From a virus, in the IMG/VR virus record IMGVR_UViG_3300034023_000064, positions 1-42,288 of that record: a stretch of 42,288 bases of DNA; one strand, written 5' to 3'. A program made the position numbers and the translations under genes. The stretch's first letter is position 1, and each line of letters begins with the position of its first letter. Below, piece by piece: positions 23,508-40,218 of this stretch. A model generated the notes under the pieces. It was not told the DNA's origin and searched no databases. It saw only the letters and a program-made list of their open reading frames with translations.

Positions 23508-26500
23508 GCTTTGCCTCTCTTATTGATGTGGGTATCTTACCACTTTTTAGTGGTTGCGAATGTGTGGTTATCTGGATAGACACAGCAGCCGGTTCTTCTT
23601 CTTCTTGCTCATCCTCCATGCTGTCTATAAATGCTTTCATGATTTGCTCAATCGCATCGTTATGAAGCACGTCAACAATACCACCGTGCGCGTACAAGTC
23701 TTCTTCTGTTGCAAAGATGGGTTTGCCTTGTGATAAGCGTTGATGTGCATGGTCAATGGCTTTATGCACAATACTGCGTGGCATGTCTTCACCTTCTTGC
23801 AAATGAAGAATAAGACGGATCTCGTCAAGTGTTAGCGTAGGCACCAGCGTTGGTACGTCCATTTCTTTACCATTGATAGGCACGCCAATTGAATATTCAG
23901 TCATCACGCCTGTACCGTCTGGACGCTCAAGCTCTCCGAAGTAGCCTAGTCCTTTCTTTGTTTTGTCTGGTCTGTTGCCATAACCATAGTCACTTTCTTC
24001 GTACTTGTCGTGTAGTGCTTGCACGCTGCCGCCTTTTGCAAAACCTTTAAGAGGTATGTCTTTATTTCTTTCATAAAATTCATCACGCAGAGAATTTAAT
24101 TCGTCATCAGTAACAAACCTACCGTATTTGTCGGTTGCTGCTTTATACAACTCTGGATGCATTTGACTTCCACTTTTATTTAAATCTGTTAATAACGTGT
24201 TTTCAAAATCCCCAACACTCGACCAATCTTTTGAGCGCACAAAGTCGTGAATAGCAGGCAAATACTTTTCATTAGGCGCAGCGTTTTGTTTGCCTTTGAT
24301 TTGAACAATTTTTTCTTGAGGAGGTCCGTAAAGATCTTTCATAAAATTTATTGCGGATTTTTTCATACCTAAATGAGGATTAGCGGCATTATATTCACGC
24401 ACGTCTGTTATTAATTTAGCTTGTTCATCGTAAGGTAATTTGTCCATCAACATGTTGTAATACAAATATTCGTCGGCAGGTTTGCTAGTTTCAATCGTCA
24501 CATGCGGCTCACCACGTCTATCACGCAATGAATAGATGTTGGACTTGCCGCTACCAACCTCATCACAATACTGACCAACACAATGACCCATCGTATCGCC
24601 TTCAAACTTCAGTGCGGCTTGTAGTGCATCACGTCTTTCTGCAATACGGTAATCTGCCAATGCTTCTTCTGGTGTTGACGCACTTGCCCACTCGCCACCA
24701 CTAGCATCAAGCACCGCTGGATTACCACGACTGTCCTCACCAAGGTAATGCCCTTCTTGCAATGTAGGCTCTGGCATTTTCATTTGCATCCAAGCCAACC
24801 CTTGATCGGGATATTCTTTGTGCATTACGGTTGCAGCGTTGCGACCCTCTTTGAGCTTCTCAGCTTCACGCCATGCGTTGATTTTAGCAACATGCTCAAC
24901 AGCCTGTGGCATGGAAACACGACTGAGCTTTGCTGGATCTATGCGCAGGAAGTCTGGGAGATCGGTGTCTGGATGTGTTGCATTGCGAAGTTTATTTGCT
25001 AAATCGTAAAAACCTGTGTCATTAGTATCAGTGCTTTTTATAGCGTAAACATTTTGGTTTTCTGGCACTGATTCAAGCCAAGGATTTGCTTGTAAATATC
25101 TAGGACTTGTATCAAGCAATTCTTTTGCTTTGTCAACAGTAAACGCATTGTCAGCGTAATGCTCCCAAAGTTTAGCTAAATCTGATTTAGCAATCCCTTC
25201 TACTGGGTAGCCTGCTTTTTTTCTTAATTCTTCAACATCATTGTATGGTGATATTTCTTTGTTGGGCGTGTAATGCAAAGGATTATAGTTCTCAAGCTCT
25301 GAGATCTTATCTTGAATTCCAGCAGTTTCACGCTGTGCATTAGCCATGCGATTAGCAATCACTTCTGATGGCAATCCCATTTCTTCATACTTAGCGGCAA
25401 ACTCTTGGAGGTTTGGTATCTTTGACTTTTGTTGACTGATAAGCACGTCACGTTTGGCAGGCCATTCCTCGGCAATACGTCGAACCGGATCTTCTGGCGT
25501 ACCCATTTCGTTTTTAATATATTTAGCCAGCTTTTGTTGCAACCAATCGTTGACTGCTACTTTAGGAATTGTATCTTTATATTCATAAGACGTAGGACTA
25601 TATTTTCCAGACAATGCAGCGGATGCAACATCTGGATCAACATATTGTGAATAACGCATGGCTGCGTCTTCTGGTGTTATGTAATAACTTGCACCTTTAA
25701 CAAAATTGCCACCCTTTGGTTTGATGATCCCACCAAAACCAGCATTGTCTATGATGAAATTAGGATCGCGCATTTGCTCGGTAGTGGGTACCGATCTGTA
25801 AGCAGCATCTTTTAGCCCAGTAAAAAACTTTTCTGCATTTGGGTATCCAGACAACAATTGTTTATAGTCTTCTATTGCTGCGTCAACTTCGCCACCTTTA
25901 GCGTAACCGTTATCCACTTCCCCTCCTTCTGCCCACTTAACCTTGTCTGCCCAGTACGCGGCACTGCTCTTGCCTTTGGCAATGTTCTTTGCATGACGTG
26001 CCTTGAATGATTCACGCTTTGCTGTCATGCGATCTGACTCACCTTCTTTTGGCTTGCCTGCTGTTTCAGCACCTTGCTCACCGAAGCGAATGATATTCTC
26101 TTTGCCATCAACCATTGTTTTCACAATGTGTGACTTGGTTGGATGGTTTGGCGTGCGTTGTGGTTTGTCTAACTGCAAACTGTCTTTGTCTACTCTGCCG
26201 CCTTGTGCGTAGCCTTCAACATCAAGCGACGGCCCATCACCCTCATACTTATAAATCAAGTCCTTTAATGGAATATCAGACAGTTTGCCACCAGCAAGTG
26301 GATAGTTTTCACGACGTTGCGCCATGTCCATGTCAAGACGATCTTGTGTTGCGCGTGCTTGTGCTTCGCCTGCTAGACGATTATATAATCTAAGTTTTGG
26401 TGCTTGATTATTTTCAATATTGCTGATTTCATCATTAAGTTTGTCACGCTCTGCGGCAATTTGTTTATGGCGCAAAACATTTGCAACATACTCATCTTCA

Positions 26501-28581
26501 TTGGTAATTGTGTCACGCAATTTTCCATTTTCAATAAGTGAAGTATTTAACGCTTTTAATTTTGGCGATAAATGGTTTTCAATGTAAAAAGATGCAGCAG
26601 ATCCTAAATCACCACCTTGACCCCAACCTTCTTGGTCTTGAATAGCGTGTTGCAATTCATGCATAGCTGTTGATTTATCAATAGCATCATCAACCATACC
26701 AACACCAATAATATCATCTCCAAAAAAACCACCTTTTCTTTCTGGCGATACATTCATCATAAGGCGACGATTGTTATCACCAAAATCAATCATGCCATGA
26801 TACGCATTATGTAATTCTGGATGAGATAAAAATGCTGATACTGGATCCATTATTCTTTCACCTCGTCGCAAATCTTCAGAATTTGCCCATGACCATTTAT
26901 CTTTTGGTATGGCTTGCGCATCCTTATCACTAATTTCACTAAACAAAGTCTTATCCGGCATACGACCAATCAAATGCTCGCGCCACACTTCTGCTGGATC
27001 TGCGCCTTCATCTAATTTCTTAGCGGCTAATTCAGCAGCTACCTTATCCCAGTTTCTTGATTTAGGTCCAATGAATGATAATCCTGCTGGCAAACCTTCC
27101 GTTGCCTTAACGCCTGGTGCTAATGTTGTCATCGCATCAGCAAGTGACTGCGCACGACCACGTTTAAACTGTGGTACGTTGCTCATCTCTGGTATCTGCA
27201 TTGGTGCATTGCCATAAGACCAGTTCTCAATCTCCTCTGGTGTTTTGCCCATGAGTAAATCACCAGCACCTACGCCACCGGCTAGTGGCACCCAGCTTGG
27301 AACTGTGTATTGATTGCCAACGTCACGCGCACTGCCAAGCATCTCGGCAAGTTTGCCAAGGTTCTCGTTTTGGTCTTGTGCTTTTACAATCCCACCTTCT
27401 GCATACTTTTCTTGCAACTCATCCAAACTACCAGCACGTTTTATAATTTCTGGATATTCATCACCAAACATGACGTAATTTCTTGTGCCTTTGTCAGTGC
27501 TACGCGATGTTGCGTCTAAGTATTTAAGACCAGGTATGTCAATGCTGTGTAAATACTCAGCCGCCTTTTCTGGTGATCCAAGCATCTTGGCTAGTTTATG
27601 ATAAGTGACCGACCCTTCTGCGCCTTTCTCAAACGCTGGTGACATGTTCTTGTGCATGTTGATTTCTTCAGCAATCTTTTCCATTGCAATTTGATCTTCA
27701 CGACTTGGAAAATTGTAAGTATTGGCAAACAAATCATCTGGATTGAATTCGCCATTGTCGTATTTAGATGAAATCGCGTCACGCGCATTCTGTAACTCTT
27801 GAATCTTTCTTGGTATTGCTTTGCCAACATAACTTTCAACGGGTTGATCCCAGTCTAGCAAATGATGTTCCCCAAGTGGATCCATTGCTTCACGCTCTGC
27901 GTTAGGCCAACGGATTGAGGTTTCGTAGAGGTTTCCGCCTTTTTGCGCTTCCATATCTTTTATTTCTTGCAACAAAGCAGCTTCTTTTTCTTTATCACCT
28001 CTTAATTTTGCAATATCAGCATTGTATTTTTTTAAAAATATTTTATTTTGATACTCATCAACTGGAACACCTGCTGTCATATAAGTTTTTGCAACCAAAG
28101 GATTTTCTGCAAAATAAAGTCCATGCCCATACGCTTGCGCACCTTCACCTGTTCCAATCTTTGACATGTCAAACCGGTCAAACAAATGTGGCGTACCATG
28201 ATAGGCTTTGATTGCCATACCAAGCGTACCACCTGCTGATGCAGGAGCAAACGGCATTGCACCTGTTTGCGCAAGACCAGCAAACTCCATTCCTGCTTCA
28301 GCTTTTTGTGCGTCAGTTCTGAATATTGGATGCTCCATTGCGTATAGCGGATAACTTTCTTCGTCATAACCAGCATCTTTAGCGGCTGCAAGTTCTGCAT
28401 CTGTTAGCTGGTCTGTTGCAATTGCATACATATCGTTTAAATGTTGCCCGTAACGCTTTGCCGCTTCAACGGGATGCAAGATTGTCGATGCAATCATTGA
28501 GTCATTGTCTTCAAAGTTTTGTGCATTTAATTTGTCTTTTAATACACCATATTGTTCTGCTAAATCTTTTAAGTCTGCCAT
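23500..28581 (-). CDS. 1693-residue polyvalent protein: ART, HExxH zincin, PcfJ-like and virion modules
   Basis: This giant protein looks like several separable domains joined by AxGG linkers. Residues 126-380 resemble a polyvalent-protein ADP-ribosyltransferase (AYHGTPHLFDRFD, GHGLYFAENPLVAKTY, GTRNYVMFGDEYPEII). Residues 636-660 contain MHELQHAIQDQEGWGQGGD, an HExxH zinc-metallopeptidase signature of polyvalent proteins. About 845-880 hold a basic FKARHAKNIAKGKSSAAYWADKVKW module. Residues 1331-1365 (MGHCVGQY, SLRDRRGEPHVTIE) resemble PcfJ-like domains. Residues 1543-1630 (LGYFGELERPDGTGVMTEYSIG, PTLVPTLTLDEI) match a further recurrent phage module. The linkers YAEGGIV, YAQGGRV, WAEGGEV/YAKGGEV, FAKGGSV and YAHGGIV fall near residues 394, 791, 883-897, 1514 and 1630. 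Position between terminase and portal suggests packaging with the virion and injection. Activities are inferred. Confidence 0.65.
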   Translation of the reverse strand: MADLKDLAEQYGVLKDKLNAQNFEDNDSMIASTILHPVEAAKRYGQHLNDMYAIATDQLTDAELAAAKDAGYDEESYPLYAMEHPIFRTDAQKAEAGMEFAGLAQTGAMPFAPASAGGTLGMAIKAYHGTPHLFDRFDMSKIGTGEGAQAYGHGLYFAENPLVAKTYMTAGVPVDEYQNKIFLKKYNADIAKLRGDKEKEAALLQEIKDMEAQKGGNLYETSIRWPNAEREAMDPLGEHHLLDWDQPVESYVGKAIPRKIQELQNARDAISSKYDNGEFNPDDLFANTYNFPSREDQIAMEKIAEEINMHKNMSPAFEKGAEGSVTYHKLAKMLGSPEKAAEYLHSIDIPGLKYLDATSRSTDKGTRNYVMFGDEYPEIIKRAGSLDELQEKYAEGGIVKAQDQNENLGKLAEMLGSARDVGNQYTVPSWVPLAGGVGAGDLLMGKTPEEIENWSYGNAPMQIPEMSNVPQFKRGRAQSLADAMTTLAPGVKATEGLPAGLSFIGPKSRNWDKVAAELAAKKLDEGADPAEVWREHLIGRMPDKTLFSEISDKDAQAIPKDKWSWANSEDLRRGERIMDPVSAFLSHPELHNAYHGMIDFGDNNRRLMMNVSPERKGGFFGDDIIGVGMVDDAIDKSTAMHELQHAIQDQEGWGQGGDLGSAASFYIENHLSPKLKALNTSLIENGKLRDTITNEDEYVANVLRHKQIAAERDKLNDEISNIENNQAPKLRLYNRLAGEAQARATQDRLDMDMAQRRENYPLAGGKLSDIPLKDLIYKYEGDGPSLDVEGYAQGGRVDKDSLQLDKPQRTPNHPTKSHIVKTMVDGKENIIRFGEQGAETAGKPKEGESDRMTAKRESFKARHAKNIAKGKSSAAYWADKVKWAEGGEVDNGYAKGGEVDAAIEDYKQLLSGYPNAEKFFTGLKDAAYRSVPTTEQMRDPNFIIDNAGFGGIIKPKGGNFVKGASYYITPEDAAMRYSQYVDPDVASAALSGKYSPTSYEYKDTIPKVAVNDWLQQKLAKYIKNEMGTPEDPVRRIAEEWPAKRDVLISQQKSKIPNLQEFAAKYEEMGLPSEVIANRMANAQRETAGIQDKISELENYNPLHYTPNKEISPYNDVEELRKKAGYPVEGIAKSDLAKLWEHYADNAFTVDKAKELLDTSPRYLQANPWLESVPENQNVYAIKSTDTNDTGFYDLANKLRNATHPDTDLPDFLRIDPAKLSRVSMPQAVEHVAKINAWREAEKLKEGRNAATVMHKEYPDQGLAWMQMKMPEPTLQEGHYLGEDSRGNPAVLDASGGEWASASTPEEALADYRIAERRDALQAALKFEGDTMGHCVGQYCDEVGSGKSNIYSLRDRRGEPHVTIETSKPADEYLYYNMLMDKLPYDEQAKLITDVREYNAANPHLGMKKSAINFMKDLYGPPQEKIVQIKGKQNAAPNEKYLPAIHDFVRSKDWSSVGDFENTLLTDLNKSGSQMHPELYKAATDKYGRFVTDDELNSLRDEFYERNKDIPLKGFAKGGSVQALHDKYEESDYGYGNRPDKTKKGLGYFGELERPDGTGVMTEYSIGVPINGKEMDVPTLVPTLTLDEIRLILHLQEGEDMPRSIVHKAIDHAHQRLSQGKPIFATEEDLYAHGGIVDVLHNDAIEQIMKAFIDSMEDEQEEEEPAAVSIQITTHSQPLKSGKIPTSIREAKHG

Positions 28582-28583
28582 GT

Positions 28584-30134
28584 CTACACCGCGTAAGGAT
28601 TGATTCTCGGTTTCGCTTTGCTTGGCACATCGTCATAGTCTTTGGCTTCAGGTAGCTCAAACCATCTATCGTTCTTGAAATAGATGATGGCTTGCGTGAA
28701 GGTATCAACATAGTCGTCATGCTCGGCAACAGGAAACTTAGCGAGTTGTTTTAAAAATGCAGCCGCCCAACTAACGGGTTGACCACGATTCTTCTTCGAC
28801 TCCGGTATCCACAATAATCCTAGCTCAAGTGTAGGTGCAGCTTGGTGTGCGCGTGAAATCTTGTCTGCTCTGTCAGGATTATAACCCACTGCTGGAACTT
28901 TCGCCAATCGCAGATCCTGCAAGAGTGACTGACCACTTGCCTTCGCTTCGACCAAGATACGATCTGGACGACGTGCGCGTGAATGCGGTGACTCTTTTGA
29001 CATTCCACCGTACTCGGTACCCCAGTCTTTGATGGCTTTAGCACGCAAATCTGGGTAGCTGAGATGTTCATCCCATGCATCAATGAGCATTGCGTTATGC
29101 AACCCTTCATGTGTGAATATCGCCCAAACTGTGCAAGCCGTTGGATCGCCTGTTGTCTTCTCGGTGAACGCGCAGTCATAAGATTGAAGTATATATTCAA
29201 ACGGAGGCAAGCCATCATCGGCTGACCATAAGCCAAAGTGTTTTGTCTTAAGAATCCCACCAGACACTGGCGCAGGATCCTGTTGAAGTTGTCCCGCTGT
29301 ACCATAAGTGCCGAGCAATTGCTTAAGCATGGTGATTTCTTTTACGCCAAACCGATCAGGACAAATCAAGTCCCCTTTCTTTGTGCGTGGATCATATTCG
29401 CCAAGGATGGTCTTGCGTCGCTTGCCATCGTACTCAGCAGGAATACAGATATGCTCCCAGCCTTTGATGTCGTTTAAGATATGACCGCTGATGTCACGCT
29501 CGTGCAGACGTTGCATAACCGTCACCATCGCATCGGTCTTCGGATTGTTAAGCCGTGTTGACCACACCATGTCAAACCATTCGAGATCTGACTCGCGCAT
29601 CGCCTCGGACTGAGCTGCCTGTGCGCCATGTGGATCATCCAGTATTAAACGCGAACCACCCTCACCCGTTGCCGTACCGCCAACAGACGTTGCGAGTCGA
29701 TAGCCAGTCTTGTCATTCTCAAAACGTTGCTTTGCATTTTGATCGCCAGCAAACTTGAACATGTGACCCCAACGCTCTTGATACCAAGGTGATTGGAGTA
29801 GTCGTCTTGTCTTCAAGTTGTCGCGTGTTGACAGCGTGCCAGAATACGACGCGCACAAAAACTTCTGAGCAGGATCGGTGATCCACTCCCATGCAGGCCA
29901 CATCACTGACACAATCGTTGACTTGGAATGACGCGGAGGAATGTTGATTAACAGTCGATGTATCTCGCCAGCACTGACTGCTTCGAGATGCTCGCAGATC
30001 TCCTCAATGTGCCATGACTCCATGAACGGAACACCAGGCTCAACCACATGCCATGACTGCTTAACAAATTCGTACAAAGATGCCGACGCAGATCGTCGCG
30101 CCTTCTCAGCCTTAACTTTTTCAAGCAGTGTCAC
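28584..30134 (-). CDS. terL: Terminase large subunit (TerL)
   Basis: This protein translocates DNA into the head and cuts it. The 516-residue product has an ATPase part with a Walker A variant NIPPRHSKS (residues 64-72), Walker B LILDDP (162-167) and a coupling region VMQRLHERD near 206-214. The C-terminal nuclease has acidic residues at YDCAF (D320), ILVEAKASG (E396) and EHDDYVDTF (D473, D474), the usual RNase H-like triad. Length and order match TerL of tailed phages. It overlaps the terminase small subunit's stop by four bases and is followed after two bases by the polyvalent gene. Confidence 0.9.
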   Translation of the reverse strand: MTLLEKVKAEKARRSASASLYEFVKQSWHVVEPGVPFMESWHIEEICEHLEAVSAGEIHRLLINIPPRHSKSTIVSVMWPAWEWITDPAQKFLCASYSGTLSTRDNLKTRRLLQSPWYQERWGHMFKFAGDQNAKQRFENDKTGYRLATSVGGTATGEGGSRLILDDPHGAQAAQSEAMRESDLEWFDMVWSTRLNNPKTDAMVTVMQRLHERDISGHILNDIKGWEHICIPAEYDGKRRKTILGEYDPRTKKGDLICPDRFGVKEITMLKQLLGTYGTAGQLQQDPAPVSGGILKTKHFGLWSADDGLPPFEYILQSYDCAFTEKTTGDPTACTVWAIFTHEGLHNAMLIDAWDEHLSYPDLRAKAIKDWGTEYGGMSKESPHSRARRPDRILVEAKASGQSLLQDLRLAKVPAVGYNPDRADKISRAHQAAPTLELGLLWIPESKKNRGQPVSWAAAFLKQLAKFPVAEHDDYVDTFTQAIIYFKNDRWFELPEAKDYDDVPSKAKPRINPYAV

Positions 30135-30637
30135 GCACTCGCCTTTTGAAGCAATGAGTGCATGGTATCCAGCTCATCATCGCTCAACCCTTTAAAGTCA
30201 CCAGCGGTTTGTTGCGTGTTGTTGATCTGAATGGCGGTATCAATGTCTTTGCCAAGGATTGTTTCCTTTCCTTTTTGCAATGCATTCTGTGCTTGCGTAT
30301 GCTCTTGAATGGTGATCGTTTCATCAATCTTGCGCATCATCGTGGACAAATTCTTCATCGTTGAACGCTTGAAGAACTCCACATGTTTTAGTCTTTCAAT
30401 TACCGCATCTTCAACAACTTGCTGTTGGTGCGGTAAAAGTGCGGTAAATTCTTCGCGAACTCGCGCAGTATCTTCGATGAGCTTAGGTAAAACCCCTCGT
30501 TGCCAATCTTCTTTTTTTGCTCTTTTAGCTATATTTGAATTATCAATTCTTGTTTCATCGGAAATCTGACGTAAAGACTTATCGGCTTCATACAACGCCT
30601 TCGCCTTATCCCAATCTCCCTTCGTTGGTCTTGCCAT
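30131..30637 (-). CDS. Terminase small subunit (HTH-containing)
   Basis: I start this gene at 30637, not at a possible ATG at 30811, because AAGGAGG lies eight bases upstream and the longer form would run into phoH. The 168-residue product begins MARPTKGDWDKAKALYEADKSLRQISDETRIDNSNIAKRAKKEDW, a helix-turn-helix for DNA recognition. It continues with a helical oligomerisation region (RERLKH-like helices, IQEHTQAQNALQKGKETIL). It lies directly before TerL with four overlapping bases. Role: recognise the packaging site and recruit TerL. Confidence 0.8.
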   Translation of the reverse strand: MARPTKGDWDKAKALYEADKSLRQISDETRIDNSNIAKRAKKEDWQRGVLPKLIEDTARVREEFTALLPHQQQVVEDAVIERLKHVEFFKRSTMKNLSTMMRKIDETITIQEHTQAQNALQKGKETILGKDIDTAIQINNTQQTAGDFKGLSDDELDTMHSLLQKASA

Positions 30638-30650
30638 AACTGCTACCTCC

Positions 30651-31349
30651 TTAACGGTAACGGAGAATGATTTCTTTACACATCTCTGATCTAACAATAT
30701 CGTCAATACCAAACTCGACGATACCAATCTTATCCACATCATAAAGCCGATCAACTGCATCAGCAAGACCAGACAAACCTCGAATGTCTGTCTGCGCAAT
30801 GTCACCATCAATGATTACTTTGCAGTCATCACCAATCCGACTTAAAAATAATTTCATTTGCGATGGCGTAGTATTTTGCGCCTCATCTAAAATACACAGA
30901 CTGTTCTTAAATGTACTGCCTCTCATGAACTCCAGCGGCTTTAATTTGATCTGTCCGCGCTTAACCAATAGGTCAGTATAGGATTTTCCCAAACGCTCCT
31001 CCAGCACGCTTAAAAGCGGCTCCATGTACGGTGCAAACTTTTCACCAAGATCGCCAGGTAAAAAACCAAAACCTTTGCTCGACGCTTCAACGTTTGGTCG
31101 CGTCAATATCACGCTATCAATGAGCTTTTCTTCGAGTAGCTCGGCTGCGTAAGACGCTGCGATATACGTCTTACCCGTCCCTGCCGGACCGACAGCAAAA
31201 GTAATAACGTTTGCACGAATGGCATTGATGTATTGTTGCTGTGCTTTGTTTAATGCACGCAACTGGGATTTCTTTGGTGTTGTTGTTACTTCTTGTACAA
31301 ACTTTTGTGCGCGTCGATCTTTGCGCTTAAGTTTCTTTTCAAAATCCAT
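30651..31349 (-). CDS. phoH: PhoH-like ATPase
   Basis: This 232-residue PhoH family protein has Walker A GPAGTGKT (residues 54-61), the family block RPNVEASSKGFGFLPGDL, FMRGSTFKNSLCILDEAQN with Walker B (LCILDEAQN, 151-159), and SRIGDDCKVIIDGDIAQTDI. PhoH proteins are common in phages of aquatic bacteria and are thought to act in nucleic-acid or nucleotide metabolism; the true function in phages is unsettled. It follows a 450-base structured leader (31374-31789), suggesting post-transcriptional control. Confidence 0.85.
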   Translation of the reverse strand: MDFEKKLKRKDRRAQKFVQEVTTTPKKSQLRALNKAQQQYINAIRANVITFAVGPAGTGKTYIAASYAAELLEEKLIDSVILTRPNVEASSKGFGFLPGDLGEKFAPYMEPLLSVLEERLGKSYTDLLVKRGQIKLKPLEFMRGSTFKNSLCILDEAQNTTPSQMKLFLSRIGDDCKVIIDGDIAQTDIRGLSGLADAVDRLYDVDKIGIVEFGIDDIVRSEMCKEIILRYR

Positions 31350-31373
31350 GTAAGATCCTATTGAGAATAAGGC

Positions 31374-31789
31374 ATCGCGCTAGGTAATTGACTGCTCTCC
31401 GCCTAGCGTGATTGAAATGAAAACTAAAACATGAACACGATAGCCATCACGCTATCACTAAAAACACTAACACCTAAATGCGTTTAGTGATAGCAAAAAC
31501 CACCACGTCATTGATGCAAACAACGTGGTGTAAAAACTCCCATTTAATCAATTCCAAACTTCCTACGGTACAAGTTTGATTAAACGGGCGACTAACCAAG
31601 GATCTGATAGTAACTACACAACAGTTTAAGTAGCATTAACTATCAATGAAACACCCTGCAATAAAATGTGTCTGTAGCACGATAACGTTCCTAGAATAAA
31701 CGCGCAAGATGTTTCATTCATAACTAAACCCAAGCCACAAACCAGCCATTGATAAATCGCCAAAAATAAAAATACTGGCTTGTGGTGGG
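31374..31789 (-). ncRNA. Candidate structured leader/noncoding RNA: serial hairpin array upstream of phoH
   Basis: This 450-base gene-free stretch (31350-31796) has no convincing coding frame but many inverted repeats. From low to high coordinate, the pairs are 31374-31384 with 31402-31412 (11 bp, one mismatch), 31451-31462 with 31483-31494 (12 bp, perfect), 31501-31508 with 31523-31530 (8 bp, perfect), and 31539-31551 with 31576-31588 (12 of 13). They continue with 31605-31611 with 31639-31645, 31646-31653 with 31710-31717, and 31735-31745 with 31775-31785 (10 of 11). Two imperfect positions become G-U pairs only in minus-strand RNA, hinting at that strand; one favours the other strand. Alternatives compete: 31404-31412 also pairs with 31446-31454 (9 bp) and 31439-31444 with 31451-31456. 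RNA function is inferred. Confidence 0.5.
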
Positions 31790-31796
31790 CATAAAC

Positions 31797-32114
31797 TTAT
31801 TCTACACCACTAAAACAATTTTTATTCTCGCCTATAAAAGAAATAATTTTTGGAATTAGATCCACATAGGTTTGAATCAATACTCTGTAACAACTGTTAT
31901 TAGCAAATCGATGCTCATCGTAATTATATGACAGCCAAAAATTTGCTTTGTTTTTTCTTTTGCCATTAAACACCAATTTAAAATTTACCCATGTTTTGTT
32001 TTCAAAATCAAAGTTTGAAAAATAAACATCCCAACTGCCATCGTGATCGATTGATCCAACACATGCATAAACAGGATTTTTTGGCACCAATCCTTCAAAT
32101 GATCTATTTGACAT
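31797..32114 (-). CDS. Small hypothetical protein upstream of the hairpin array
   Basis: This 105-residue protein is not recognised. It looks like a folded soluble protein: PVYACVGSIDHDGSWDVYFSNFDFENKTWVNFKLVFNG, then KNKANFWLSYNYDEHRFANNSCYRVLIQTYVDLIPKIISF. It is rich in Asn, Phe and Tyr and has three Cys. It is the only gene in the 32381-31350 stretch, lies behind the promoter-like 32245-32250 and an attenuator-like hairpin, and is followed by a hairpin eight bases past its stop. The ribosome site (GGGTAA) is weak. Possibly an early accessory protein. Confidence 0.55.
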   Translation of the reverse strand: MSNRSFEGLVPKNPVYACVGSIDHDGSWDVYFSNFDFENKTWVNFKLVFNGKRKNKANFWLSYNYDEHRFANNSCYRVLIQTYVDLIPKIISFIGENKNCFSGVE

Positions 32115-32132
32115 TTTTTTTTACCCATAAAA

Positions 32133-32200
32133 AAAACCGTCTTCATAATCTGGTGAAAGTTGCCGTGAATGATGGCGGCTCAGATTCTAAATTCGGTTTT
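32133..32200 (-). terminator. Three-tier hairpin followed by a U-run: terminator or attenuator
   Basis: AAAACCG (32133-32139) pairs with CGGTTTT (32194-32200), AATCTG (32147-32152) with CAGATT (32181-32186), and GCCG (32162-32165) with CGGC (32176-32179), separated by symmetric seven-base internal loops. On the minus strand the stem runs into TTTTTTTT, ending just before the gene at 32114. It could terminate the primase transcript or attenuate the small gene. Confidence 0.55.
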
Positions 32201-32220
32201 GTTTAATCATTCATCTTTTA

Positions 32221-32250
32221 ACAGGTCTTTCACAACCTGTACAAATTATA
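32221..32250 (-). promoter_or_regulatory. Putative extended -10 promoter with operator-like dyad
   Basis: On the minus strand TGTTATAAT (extended -10, TATAAT at 32250-32245) would start transcription near 32238. A perfect dyad ACAGGT-N8-ACCTGT (32221-32240) covers that start, as an operator or 5' hairpin would. No clear -35 is visible. Confidence 0.4.
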
Positions 32251-32280
32251 ACACATCCCAAAAAAATATTCCCATCTACA

Positions 32281-32380
32281 TTCCCGTTCCCGTTCCCGCG
32301 TCCCCACTCTCTTAGAGAGTGTGGGACGGGCGGGAATCTAATGGGCGACTGTCCCGAATCCCGTTTGGGACAATTCGGGA
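32281..32380. other. CGGGAA iteron, G-run and hairpin cluster; candidate replication origin
   Basis: TTCCCG is repeated three times head to tail (32281-32298), and CGGGAA recurs at 32331-32336 and 32376-32381 (overlapping the end of the interval). Two more copies (32550-32555, 32572-32577) lie in the 3' part of the primase gene. The minus strand has four G-runs with short loops (32305-32283), and the plus strand has a similar G-run set (32323-32345), both compatible with G-quadruplexes. Two strong hairpins are present: GTCCC-CACTCTCT/AGAGAGTG-GGGAC around 32300-32327, and TCCCGAAT/ATTCGGGA (32352-32380). An AT-rich tract adjoins at 32241-32270. Iterons beside a primase-helicase gene suggest an origin; a terminator pair is the alternative. 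Confidence 0.45.
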
Positions 32381-32381
32381 A

Positions 32382-34244
32382 TCACGGGACATCTTTTCTT
32401 AACCAGTAATATCCAGCATCACGCATTACAAGTCCTTGTTTTTCAAGGTCTTTTAGTCCTTCATTGAAGCGATTGGAGTTTGACTTGCTGTTATTGCTCT
32501 TAATTTCTTCATACGCAAATGGTCGCCACTCCTCACGGGACACCACAAATTCCCGTTCGCCCAAAAGTGTGCGGGAACCACCTAAATTTTGCGTCGCTGC
32601 GATGGCTTTTTTTAGTCCATCTAAACATTTTTGCGTAGCTGGTTTTAATAACACTTCCTCTTGAGCGACTCCCACATACTCCAAGTAAACACCATCGATT
32701 TGCTCTTGCAGGTAATCATCATAAAAACATTCACCTTCCAGCGGCACAATCTTTAGCGCAAATTCCATGTTGCTACCTGCCGCAAAGTCTTTTGACTTAG
32801 TGCAACTAAAAGTCACCTCCATCTTGGATTTCTTTGTCATGCAAAACTCTGCATCCATACCAGCTTTTATGGCACTGCTACCACGCGCACGACCTTTATC
32901 CCCATGACCACTATGATGAACAGTCACAATCGCGCTGGTGTACTTCTTTGTGAGCATTTCAATGTTGGATAAATACATTGCCATGTCTTCAGACGAATTC
33001 TCGTCACCATGCATGTTTCTGTGCAGTGTATCGATAAAGATAGCGTAAGGTTCTTGATCAGTAATCTCAGCAATAATCTGGATGATTTGTTGCACCGCGT
33101 CTGCGCTCAACATATTGACTGATTTTGTGCTAAAATAAATGTTATCTGGATCACGATTGTATTTTTGCTTTAGAGCTTGCATACGCATAGCTAAACCACG
33201 ATGACCTTCACCTGCGATGTAGATGACTAGACCCTTCTTCGTCATACGTCCGTGCCATGTTATGCCATTCCCAATGCAAAACGCCCAATCTAAAGCCACC
33301 AAAGATTTACAAGAACCAGATTCCCCAAACAAGAGTGTGCTGGATCCTCGTTCCAGCACATCCTTTATTACCCAATCGGCTGGTTTCATCTTAGCCATTA
33401 ATTCCTGCACCGACACAAACAAACTTTGTTTTCTTCCGCACACAAAATTGTAAACGGATTCAATTCCCGCGTTGTTTGCCATGTCGTTGAAGTCTTCGCC
33501 TACGATTGGTGGGTAAATAACCTCAACACCACACTTATTGGCTTTCTCAACACCTACGCCAGACGTATCGTTATCCGCGCAGATCAAAACGCGACCTTTG
33601 TATTCTTTGCGGATCATGTCGCACACTGGTTTCAAATTGCCCGCGTTGAATGCAACGACAACGCAAAAGCCTGTGGCTTCATGTAGCGTCATTCCAGTTG
33701 CAAAACCTTCAGTGATTAAAACCGTATCACCTAGGCTTCCAATCACATAGTAACCGCCTTGCATCTTGCCGCCCGTGTAAAAACGCTTGTCACCATCTGC
33801 TGAAATAAACTGTAGTGACTGGATTTCTTCGTTTGCACCATAGACGGGAACGACCAGGCGATTATCATAAAGCCGCAATCCAGAATCCGCCTTGATGTTC
33901 TTGCGTATCAAATAATCATGGTTTTCAATCGTTGGCAACTTGGCGTAAAGCTCTTGCGCATTAAAGGCAGCGGAGGCGTAAGCAAAGTCACGCTCCTCCT
34001 TGGCTTTCTTTAATGCTTCTTCACGATCATAATCGCTCGCTAAGGCTTGACCATTAAGAAACCAATAGTGAACCTCGCCAGACTTCCAATCGCCAAATGC
34101 TGCGCCTTTACCGTCAGCGAACATGGATACCCAACCCGACTTGTCTTTGCCTGTCGTTTGAAATCTTGTGATGGCAGATTGCTTAATATATGGCGGAGGA
34201 TTAAATCCCACCGCACGGATTGCGTCGAGCAAATCTTGACTCAT
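32382..34244 (-). CDS. Primase-helicase (TOPRIM plus RepA-like ATPase)
   Basis: This 620-residue replication protein combines a TOPRIM primase-type part (VLITEGFATGMTLHEATG with E179, and VLICADNDTSG with D224 and D226) with a RecA-fold helicase. The helicase has Walker A GESGSCKS (307-314), GEGHRGLAMRM, Walker B AIFIDTLHRN (401-410) and VTVHHSGHGDKGRARGSSAIK. The usual Gly before Lys-Ser in Walker A is Cys here. No CHC2 zinc finger is seen at the N-terminus, though the short start (FGDWKSGEVHYWF) resembles primase N-terminal modules. The start has GGAA six bases upstream and overlaps the HTH gene by four bases (ATGA). Confidence 0.8.
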   Translation of the reverse strand: MSQDLLDAIRAVGFNPPPYIKQSAITRFQTTGKDKSGWVSMFADGKGAAFGDWKSGEVHYWFLNGQALASDYDREEALKKAKEERDFAYASAAFNAQELYAKLPTIENHDYLIRKNIKADSGLRLYDNRLVVPVYGANEEIQSLQFISADGDKRFYTGGKMQGGYYVIGSLGDTVLITEGFATGMTLHEATGFCVVVAFNAGNLKPVCDMIRKEYKGRVLICADNDTSGVGVEKANKCGVEVIYPPIVGEDFNDMANNAGIESVYNFVCGRKQSLFVSVQELMAKMKPADWVIKDVLERGSSTLLFGESGSCKSLVALDWAFCIGNGITWHGRMTKKGLVIYIAGEGHRGLAMRMQALKQKYNRDPDNIYFSTKSVNMLSADAVQQIIQIIAEITDQEPYAIFIDTLHRNMHGDENSSEDMAMYLSNIEMLTKKYTSAIVTVHHSGHGDKGRARGSSAIKAGMDAEFCMTKKSKMEVTFSCTKSKDFAAGSNMEFALKIVPLEGECFYDDYLQEQIDGVYLEYVGVAQEEVLLKPATQKCLDGLKKAIAATQNLGGSRTLLGEREFVVSREEWRPFAYEEIKSNNSKSNSNRFNEGLKDLEKQGLVMRDAGYYWLRKDVP

Positions 34245-34480: not shown

Positions 34481-34526
34481 CCTCGGTAAAGAAATTATTT
34501 TTTTAATCCCAATGTGGAGAGCAACA

Positions 34527-38960: not shown

Positions 38961-39245
38961 ATGAAAAAAGTAACAGAACTGCAATACGCAATGCTTTGCA
39001 AAATCATCGAAGATGATTTCACATGGAGCAATGGAAATGCTCTTGAAGCCTTAGAAGAAGGCCCAAATGGTTGTCTTACATACGTCAACCAGATCATTGA
39101 GTCAGCTCAAGATCGTGGAACTGCAACAAGTTTGATGAATGCAGGACTTGTTGGTCGTCACAATGCAGGAACCCGTGAGGACTGCATTTGGTTAACGGAT
39201 GCAGGTGTTGAGTTGATGAGAGAGCTTTACGCAGTAGCCGCATAA
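38961..39245 (+). CDS. Small winged-helix-like hypothetical protein
   Basis: This 94-residue protein is not recognised with certainty. It starts MKKVTELQYAMLCKIIEDD and has SLMNAGLVGRHNAGTREDCIWLTDAGVELMREL. The helix, then short strand (CIWLTDAG) and final helix resemble a winged-helix regulator. The start has GGAG nine bases upstream. It is the first gene behind the promoter copy at 38862 and is followed by a strong hairpin. Confidence 0.5.
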   Translation: MKKVTELQYAMLCKIIEDDFTWSNGNALEALEEGPNGCLTYVNQIIESAQDRGTATSLMNAGLVGRHNAGTREDCIWLTDAGVELMRELYAVAA

Positions 39246-39255
39246 ATATAAAAAA

Positions 39256-39281
39256 AACTGGGCGTAAATATGCGCCCAGTT
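39256..39281 (+). terminator. Strong 9-bp hairpin between small genes
   Basis: AACTGGGCG (39256-39264) pairs perfectly with CGCCCAGTT (39273-39281) over an eight-base loop. The A-run precedes the stem on this strand, so a T-run follows only on the opposite strand. A second CGCCCA (39282-39287) could pair instead. It may stabilise mRNA, attenuate, or stop antisense transcription. Confidence 0.5.
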
Positions 39282-39303
39282 CGCCCAACTTTAGGAGTAA
39301 ATA

Positions 39304-39711
39304 ATGAAATTAATTATTAAAGAAATGAAGAAGGAAAAGTTTGAAAATGCTGACTTTTTTGCAGGCGCATTTCAATCAAAAGGAGTCACAATTGAAGCAG
39401 TTGTGACAGACTGCCCAGACAGGGCTTGGCTGGAAATCGGGTTTAACGAAATGACCGTTATTGACGGTAAAGAGGTATCTTTGTTTTTAAAAGATGACGC
39501 GCAAGACACACTTGCTGCGTTATGGCGTGTGCAACAACAGGTTGCAACTGATTTACCGCTGGTGAAAAAAGTTGTATCCAGTAAATTTATTGCTGAAGAT
39601 ATGCACGGCAGAGATGTCATGTGCGATACGCTTGAAGAAGCGTTGGACGCACATAAGAGATTTGGCAATCCACGCCAAATCGATGACATAAAATTTATTG
39701 CGGGTGAATAA
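39304..39711 (+). CDS. Hypothetical protein
   Basis: This 135-residue protein is not recognised. The sequence shows a beta-rich first half (GVTIEAVVTDCPDRAWLEIGFNEMTVIDGKEVSLFL) and a helical second half (DTLAALWRVQQQVATDLPLVKK). AGGAG lies six bases before the ATG. It follows a strong hairpin and is followed by a tightly spaced second gene. Probably an early accessory protein. Confidence 0.55.
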   Translation: MKLIIKEMKKEKFENADFFAGAFQSKGVTIEAVVTDCPDRAWLEIGFNEMTVIDGKEVSLFLKDDAQDTLAALWRVQQQVATDLPLVKKVVSSKFIAEDMHGRDVMCDTLEEALDAHKRFGNPRQIDDIKFIAGE

Positions 39712-39712
39712 C

Positions 39713-40018
39713 ATGCACGAAACATTAACATTCCAGATTGTCACGCATGACAATTATGAATTGACCGCTGAGGTCAAAGTGTTAATAACTGGTAGCTTTA
39801 GAGAAGCTACATTTCATCACGAAGCTGAGGATGAACGTGAAATTGACATTGAAAATATTGCCATCTTTGATGAAGATGGTGATCCGGTAGCAAAGCCATC
39901 ACAAAGATTGCTCGACATTGTTGCAGAGCATATCGACGACAATTTTATTGAGATTTATCGTGGTGCTACCACCATTGATGATTTTCATTCAGATTACAAA
40001 TTGCGTGATCTGATTTAA
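39713..40018 (+). CDS. Hypothetical acidic protein
   Basis: This 101-residue protein, acidic in the middle (EAEDEREIDIENIAIFDEDGDP), has a beta-rich start (LTFQIVTHDNYELTAEVKVLITG). I take the start at 39713 (GGGTGA upstream) rather than 39698, since the latter would overlap the previous gene. Small acidic early phage proteins often inhibit host enzymes or mimic DNA, but there is no direct evidence here. It ends just before a terminator-like hairpin. Confidence 0.5.
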   Translation: MHETLTFQIVTHDNYELTAEVKVLITGSFREATFHHEAEDEREIDIENIAIFDEDGDPVAKPSQRLLDIVAEHIDDNFIEIYRGATTIDDFHSDYKLRDLI

Positions 40019-40034
40019 CGAATACTCCTACCTA

Positions 40035-40059
40035 GCCGCTAAGCCAAGTGGCCTTTTTT
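40035..40059 (+). terminator. Intrinsic terminator
   Basis: GCCGCT (40035-40040) pairs with AGTGGC (40047-40052, one G-U) over a six-base loop and is followed by a C and a T6 run. This has the form of a rho-independent terminator between the gene ending at 40018 and the small gene at 40072. Confidence 0.65.
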
Positions 40060-40071
40060 GAGGTTAACAAA

Positions 40072-40218
40072 ATGATTGAATTTATCAAGTGGCTAGACGA
40101 CTCGGATGTCGCCTATTTGGTTATGCTTGCGCTTTTTTTAGCGATGGCAAAATTGCATTCCAAAGCCATGGAAGAAAACACACGTTTACGCAAATTACTT
40201 AAGAGAGCAATGCGATGA
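40072..40218 (+). CDS. 48-residue small membrane protein
   Basis: A short frame with GAGG eight bases upstream encodes IEFIKWLDDSDVAYLVMLALFLAMAKLHSKAMEENTRLRKLL. One hydrophobic helix (residues 13-27) is followed by a basic, coiled-coil-like tail. Its TGA overlaps the next ATG. Likely real by ribosome site and coupling; function unknown. Confidence 0.55.
   Translation: MIEFIKWLDDSDVAYLVMLALFLAMAKLHSKAMEENTRLRKLLKRAMR

Follow-up and report, generated by a model that had tools for sequence, protein, structure and literature searches.

Gene Order and Features of the Locus

The window, that is, the whole stretch of DNA that we analyzed, is the 42,288-base virus record IMGVR_UViG_3300034023_000064, from a phage described as freshwater. 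Its late genes run from phoH through terS and terL into the structural genes, all on the minus strand. A primase-helicase gene (32382–34244) lies upstream of the leader RNA and hairpin array considered here, and recombination genes start at 34512 on the plus strand. In minus-strand order the features are the following.

32245–32250, minus strand: extended TATAAT −10 box (TGTTATAAT), directly before the leader RNA
32129–32244, minus strand: 116-nt leader RNA with two pseudoknots and a terminator ending in U8
31797–32114, minus strand: 105-aa small open reading frame (ORF) that separates the leader RNA from the array
31720–31796, minus strand: H1, a long hairpin with the conserved loop TGGCGATTTATCAAT
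31636–31727, minus strand: variable domain X9, with a 24-nt imperfect outer stem TGAAACATC/GGGTGTTTCA (I1)
31605–31645, minus strand: small hairpin TGATAGT...ACTATCA, in a slot occupied by module B in relatives
31539–31588, minus strand: hairpin CCCGTTTAATCAA/TTGATTAAATGGG (I4), found in six further distinct sequences
31495–31530, minus strand: hairpin resembling an intrinsic terminator, 12 pairs followed by U5
31451–31494, minus strand: perfect 12-bp hairpin GCTATCACTAAA/TTTAGTGATAGC (I5)
31374–31412, minus strand: last hairpin before phoH, ATCACGCTAGG/CCTAGCGCGAT
30651–31349, minus strand: phoH, the first gene downstream of the array (PHROGs phrog_170, E 3e-77)
After phoH, minus strand: terS (phrog_1206, terminase small subunit), then terL (phrog_38, terminase large subunit)

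The array thus lies between the 105-aa ORF and phoH. The ORF has no match in Pfam or PHROGs; homologues of 40–64% identity occupy the same position in some relatives. The array itself (31374–31789) has neither a protein match nor a long coding frame. The near relatives of the locus are IMG/VR contigs; L261, a further relative, had been placed in the bin of an uncultured Methylomonas genome, which hints only weakly at the host. Just after the primase gene, at 32280–32400, the window has G+C-rich nested inverted repeats (CCCGTTCCCG.., GTCCCGAATCCCGTTTGGGACAATTCGGGAATCACGGGAC), which are also present in L006, L011, and L014.

The Hairpins of the Array Are Genuine

An earlier note on this DNA counted at least seven inverted repeats of 7–13 bp in a stretch free of coding frames, and the repeat list bears this out: the array holds inverted repeats I4, I5, I6, I7, I9, I13, I15, and I16 as well as the 24-nt imperfect pair I1. 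Its predicted fold has an energy of −142.6 kcal/mol on the minus strand (z −5.0) and −108.0 kcal/mol on the plus strand (z −5.9). None of 100 dinucleotide shuffles per strand reached these values, which answers the concern, raised in the same note, that shuffled sequences might fold equally well. When the whole genome was scanned in 300-nt tiles (n = 140; mean z −0.75, sd 1.37), the minus-strand tile at 31501, in the array, was among the three lowest of the 140 (z −4.4), and the tile at 32101, just upstream of the array, was the lowest of all (z −6.1). Because two coding stretches near 39 kb were also low, the folding z-score alone is suggestive rather than proof; in the coding stretch 39001–40200, tile values ran from about −4.3 to −4.9 on both strands.

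Comparison with relatives revealed compensating changes. The H1 loop is present in 77 IMG/VR stretches, and in three lineages the stem around this fixed loop is nearly wholly different in sequence, with pairing retained. As counted by a script (MAFFT misaligned the H1 arms), the 13 paired positions in 19 sequences comprised 209 Watson–Crick, 10 G-U, 7 A-C, and 21 other cells, most of the failures concerning the outer end or two sequences that were shifted. The last hairpin, 31374–31412, was paired in 131 of 132 cells in 11 distinct relatives, with a compensatory change in L003/L016. The covariation check that had been proposed for homologous regions upstream of phoH gave compensating changes in both H1 and the last hairpin; together with folding that surpasses that of shuffles, they support the claim of a structured RNA before phoH. 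The hairpins of the array are genuine, beyond what chance would produce.

Exchange of Modules among Relatives

Close homologues of phoH were found in fifteen loci. In the regions upstream of them, some modules of the window are more than 95% identical and others are missing, replaced, or reordered. Gain, loss, and swapping of modules were seen between phages with nearly identical phoH, and no cassette was universal among the arrays compared. L015 carries domain X9 at 99% identity, linked there to module B. In L004 the flanks of the small hairpin at 31605–31645 enclose module B instead, and the stem ends of the hairpin at 31451–31494 enclose a domain of about 190 nt. The slot of the terminator-like hairpin (31495–31530) holds CCACCACTCATTGCAGTTTATGGCGTGGTGG with a U5–U7 tract in relatives.

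The relatives also carry extra modules that are absent from the window. Among these are domains inside ACTATCA/TGATAGT stems, some of them tRNA-like; several cassettes of relatives are tRNA-like within stems of 15–20 bp, and some match tRNA in ARAGORN or Rfam. Another is the hairpin TTGACAGCTTGGAAAGACAAGC: its 19-base core turned up in at least 120 IMG/VR stretches, in many cases next to tRNA genes. The window lacks the 19-mer ACAGCTTGGAAAGACAAGC, which is common in relatives. A short hairpin with the loop GAAAGA recurs in L017–L136 (pattern ACAGCTTGGAAAGACAAGC), in at least 120 phage stretches; it often stands a few bases before a tRNA gene and is a possible processing or antitermination element. 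Clustering of the cassettes gave 23 clusters with both strands listed, so that about half are reverse complements. At positions 2662–2700 of L023 we noted 39 bases with 92% identity to Staphylococcus phage genes annotated as RNA polymerase beta subunit or hypothetical protein.

The locus of L261 lacks phoH, and there the leader, small ORFs, H1, the terminator-like hairpin, and the cassette following it stand directly before terS. Because the array directly precedes terS in that relative, its constant neighbor is the packaging operon and not phoH. In yet other phages the array is flanked by the portal gene and the structural gene that follows it, and it has the same orientation as the gene upstream.

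Reading Direction

It had been suggested that the RNA is read toward phoH, given two mismatches that become G-U pairs on the minus strand only. In our tally for the window those at 31539/31588 and 31735/31785 do behave in this way, but the mismatch within 31374–31412 gives G-U when the plus strand is read and A-C when the minus strand is. Neither G-U pairs nor folding energy, for which z is similar on both strands, decided the strand. The direction itself is supported by co-orientation with the upstream gene and by promoters in relatives: in L090, L190, L193, and L194, H1 directly follows a consensus promoter, TTGACA-17-TATTAT or TATCAT. The promoter before H1 fixes the reading direction in those four relatives, and on this basis the array RNA is read toward phoH.

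A Double-Pseudoknot Leader RNA

In the leader RNA the loop of hairpin P1, GTGAAAG, pairs downstream with CTTTCAC to form P6; the upstream strand of P2, GAATGAT, pairs with ATCATTC in the apical loop of a nested hairpin; and P3–P5 make up the terminator stem with its U8 tract. All six helices are kept and covary across 33 distinct sequences, and a −10-like box, which was not used as a selection filter, is present in 33 of 33. P6, in 11 versions among the 33, has no mismatch in 231 cells, a perfection due in part to its having been located in each sequence by best complementarity. For P2 there are 14 versions, and 21 of 264 cells are mismatched, almost always at a helix end. A formal count on six aligned sequences is free of the best-complementarity bias: 99.5% of cells were paired, 12 of 33 pairs had changed on both sides, none of 500 shuffles reached the score, and the score dropped sharply when the structure was slid by one column.

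Packaging operons are not the only genes that follow the leader RNA, which also precedes small accessory-type genes; two copies are present in L243. It has no match in Rfam and no convincing match in named phages. As judged from the stem and U8 tract after TATAAT, and from the terminator-like hairpin at 31495–31530, the region has the layout of an attenuator or riboswitch-type element, namely, a putative intrinsic terminator in an untranslated leader after a promoter. Both pseudoknots covary, and the terminator hairpin is itself tied into both; they may either hinder or help termination. The leader RNA, which was absent from the earlier note, is a better candidate for a switch than the array. 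Because its covariation is exceptionally clean, and because it is adjacent to a promoter and stands before several kinds of phage gene, it is well suited to tests of RNA-based control over the late genes of phages.

Comparison with Known RNA Systems

At the gathering score, Rfam gave no match in the whole window; at permissive thresholds, 31200–32400 and 12 related loci had no match to GOLLD or ROOL. Over all the Rfam searches, of relatives and named phages as well, tRNAs were the only hits, and these lay outside the window. ARAGORN found no tRNA genes in the window, where Rfam RF00005 was also unmatched, and the DNA of the array has no similarity to named phages. None of the three elements (array, module B core, and double-pseudoknot leader) belongs to an Rfam family, and in the literature on related topics we found no description of any of them. 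In late leaders of the lambda Q type a promoter is followed by a short leader and an intrinsic terminator before the late genes. The window likewise has a promoter, a leader, and a terminator ahead of its late genes, but its terminator hairpin forms part of two covarying pseudoknots and is followed by a long structured array. Its mode of action may perhaps resemble such leader-terminator control, as in lambda Q or HK022 put.

GOLLD and ROOL are large structured phage RNAs of unknown function that are often near tRNA islands; the 5′ region of GOLLD is less conserved, and its linker sometimes has tRNAs (PMC12286853). The array resembles them as a structured phage RNA of the kind found near tRNA islands (PMC12286853) but differs in being a chain of separate, exchangeable stem-loops and not one large fold. 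Identity with either was rejected, their covariance models being unmatched even at the permissive threshold, in keeping with the earlier note, which had assigned the array to neither. The put RNA of phage HK022, about 70 nt with two stem-loops, suppresses termination without a dedicated protein and is characterized by binding to the beta′ zinc-binding domain (PMC9378689). Like put, the RNA described here is the leader of a phage transcript, preceded by a promoter and followed by terminators (PMC9378689). In sequence the two differ: neither array nor leader matched HK022 positions 25000–33000 by blastn, and the HK022 immunity region has no sequence similarity to them. Finally, theta ribozymes are defined by a minimal HDV-like fold with a catalytic cytosine and cleave at the 3′ end of a tRNA (PMC10879173); they share with our cassettes the character of small structured phage RNA motifs beside tRNAs (PMC10879173). 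The window has no tRNA within 5 nt of whose 3′ end a cleavage site could fall, and the hairpin TGACAGC..GGAAAGAC..GC, which recurs beside tRNAs, gave no fit to an HDV-like fold on inspection by eye.

Module B and Related Regions of Other Phages

Module B, of about 105 nt with the core GTAATGGC..AAATAGGARACTTGGGA..TGAAAGTAC..CGAATA, has been lost from the window. It is present in 68 IMG/VR stretches, as well as in jumbo phages and a phage-plasmid. Positions include the following.

L002, 2701–2800
L012, about 925–1020
L013, about 48–146
L183, 2478–2605
L184, 2403–2580
L232, 3988–4113

Its gene context is mainly of two kinds, either ahead of the phoH/terS/terL operon or following the portal gene, and wherever an upstream ORF was called, that ORF was on the same strand as the RNA. 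Its structure is supported by covariation: 90.6% of cells were paired, 11 of 24 pairs had changed on both sides, and none of 500 shuffles reached the covariation score. The module is intergenic in Salmonella phage vB_SalM_SA002 and Erwinia phage pEa_SNUABM_48, and it recurs in a Salmonella phage-plasmid. Other parts of the 900-nt non-coding region of that phage-plasmid match 427 phage and 969 plasmid records, among them phage P1, where the match adjoins ban and tRNA genes; epsilon15-like phages, where it adjoins a tRNA-Arg; and lambdoid phages, where it comes immediately after the repressor gene. The window array is not directly similar to these enterobacterial regions, and we infer through the shared module B that the two may form one family.

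Proposed Function of the Array

The earlier note had proposed that certain segments of the array can pair in two ways, as in a switching leader. In the window they can, exactly or nearly so: 31404–31412 forms nine of nine pairs with 31446–31454 and eight of nine with 31374–31382, and 31451–31456 forms six of six with each of its partners, 31439–31444 and 31489–31494. That the two alternative pairings decide phoH expression draws further support from six related loci, in which 31404–31412, its alternative partner weakened to two G-U pairs, is still pairable with the upstream segment. The relatives, however, improve the local hairpin at the expense of the alternative: hairpin 31374–31412 is kept in every relative that possesses it, and L014 and L015 retain it with the alternative partner missing. 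Because the alternative partner has been weakened or lost and the local hairpin kept, selection appears to favor the latter, and we regard a switching array as very improbable.

The reading that we tentatively prefer is that 31350–31796 is an untranslated structured RNA of the minus strand, the lower part of the late-operon leader, acting mainly in cis. The structures, their covariation, the exchange of modules, the gene order, and the terminator-like shapes all emerge from sequence comparison; from them we infer transcription in the window phage, termination, read-through, and a regulatory effect. Transcription would most likely begin at the TATAAT box near 32250 and yield first the double-pseudoknot leader with its U8 terminator; the small ORF would be copied next, then the hairpin array with its second terminator-like hairpin, and the transcript would finally enter phoH, terS, and terL. 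The array is a chain of self-contained stem-loops, swapped as cassettes among related phages, and the region as a whole would mainly govern the passage of RNA polymerase through the two terminators and stabilize or process the late transcript. The cis-leader reading is supported by terminator-like hairpins on the minus strand, in the window and in relatives, by the folding, the module exchange, the retained pairing of H1 and the promoter before it in relatives, by the covarying leader RNA, and by the position of the array before terS in L261 and after the portal gene in other phages; against it count the loss of module B from the window and the lack of a cassette common to every array. The cassettes linked by module B that lie outside late operons (close to tRNA genes in jumbo phages, in the phage-plasmid and, via its region, in P1, Uetakevirus, and lambdoid phages) also count against a view restricted to cis action and suggest a role in trans. 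The main rival, which we consider possible but somewhat unlikely, is accordingly that the array represents one or more ornate non-coding RNAs that act in trans after excision from the late transcript, much like tRNAs, the long stems serving as processing stalks and the enclosed domains as active parts. The identity of the module B core across freshwater phages, jumbo phages, and the phage-plasmid fits such an RNA, as do the tRNA-like cassettes and the occurrence of cassettes next to tRNA genes and as stand-alone units, but the window has neither module B nor a recognizable tRNA. It is improbable that the hairpins, as mobile or recombination-prone units, are maintained by recombination and have little function themselves, the array being a graveyard or hotspot of palindromic insertions. 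Fast gain and loss of modules between close relatives and the want of a universal cassette would agree with this, and the shared stem ends ACTATCA/TGATAGT could seed recombination; compensatory changes nevertheless preserve pairing in H1, the last hairpin, and module B, and the loops are conserved, whereas a graveyard would preserve neither pairing nor loops.

A broader and unlikely possibility is that unrelated phages (freshwater, jumbo, P1-like phage-plasmids, epsilon15-like, and lambdoid) share a pool of RNA cassettes with common stem "sockets" and tRNA-like and T-loop-like domains. They would assemble these into phage-specific non-coding arrays acting at the level of RNA, for example, as antiterminators made of RNA alone or as decoys for host defences that target RNA, and the window array would be a stripped-down example. 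Some of the modular cassettes lead to regions of well-studied phages, P1 among them, and the cassettes would be open to study in laboratory E. coli. Long, unannotated, modular structured regions are seen in phage P1 (L233, 1–460 and 2100–2400) and in phiV10-like, mEp390, SfII, and phiNP phages (L235, L236, L237, L238, L240, and L241); that of mEp390 lies directly after a TTGACA-type promoter, behind the repressor gene.
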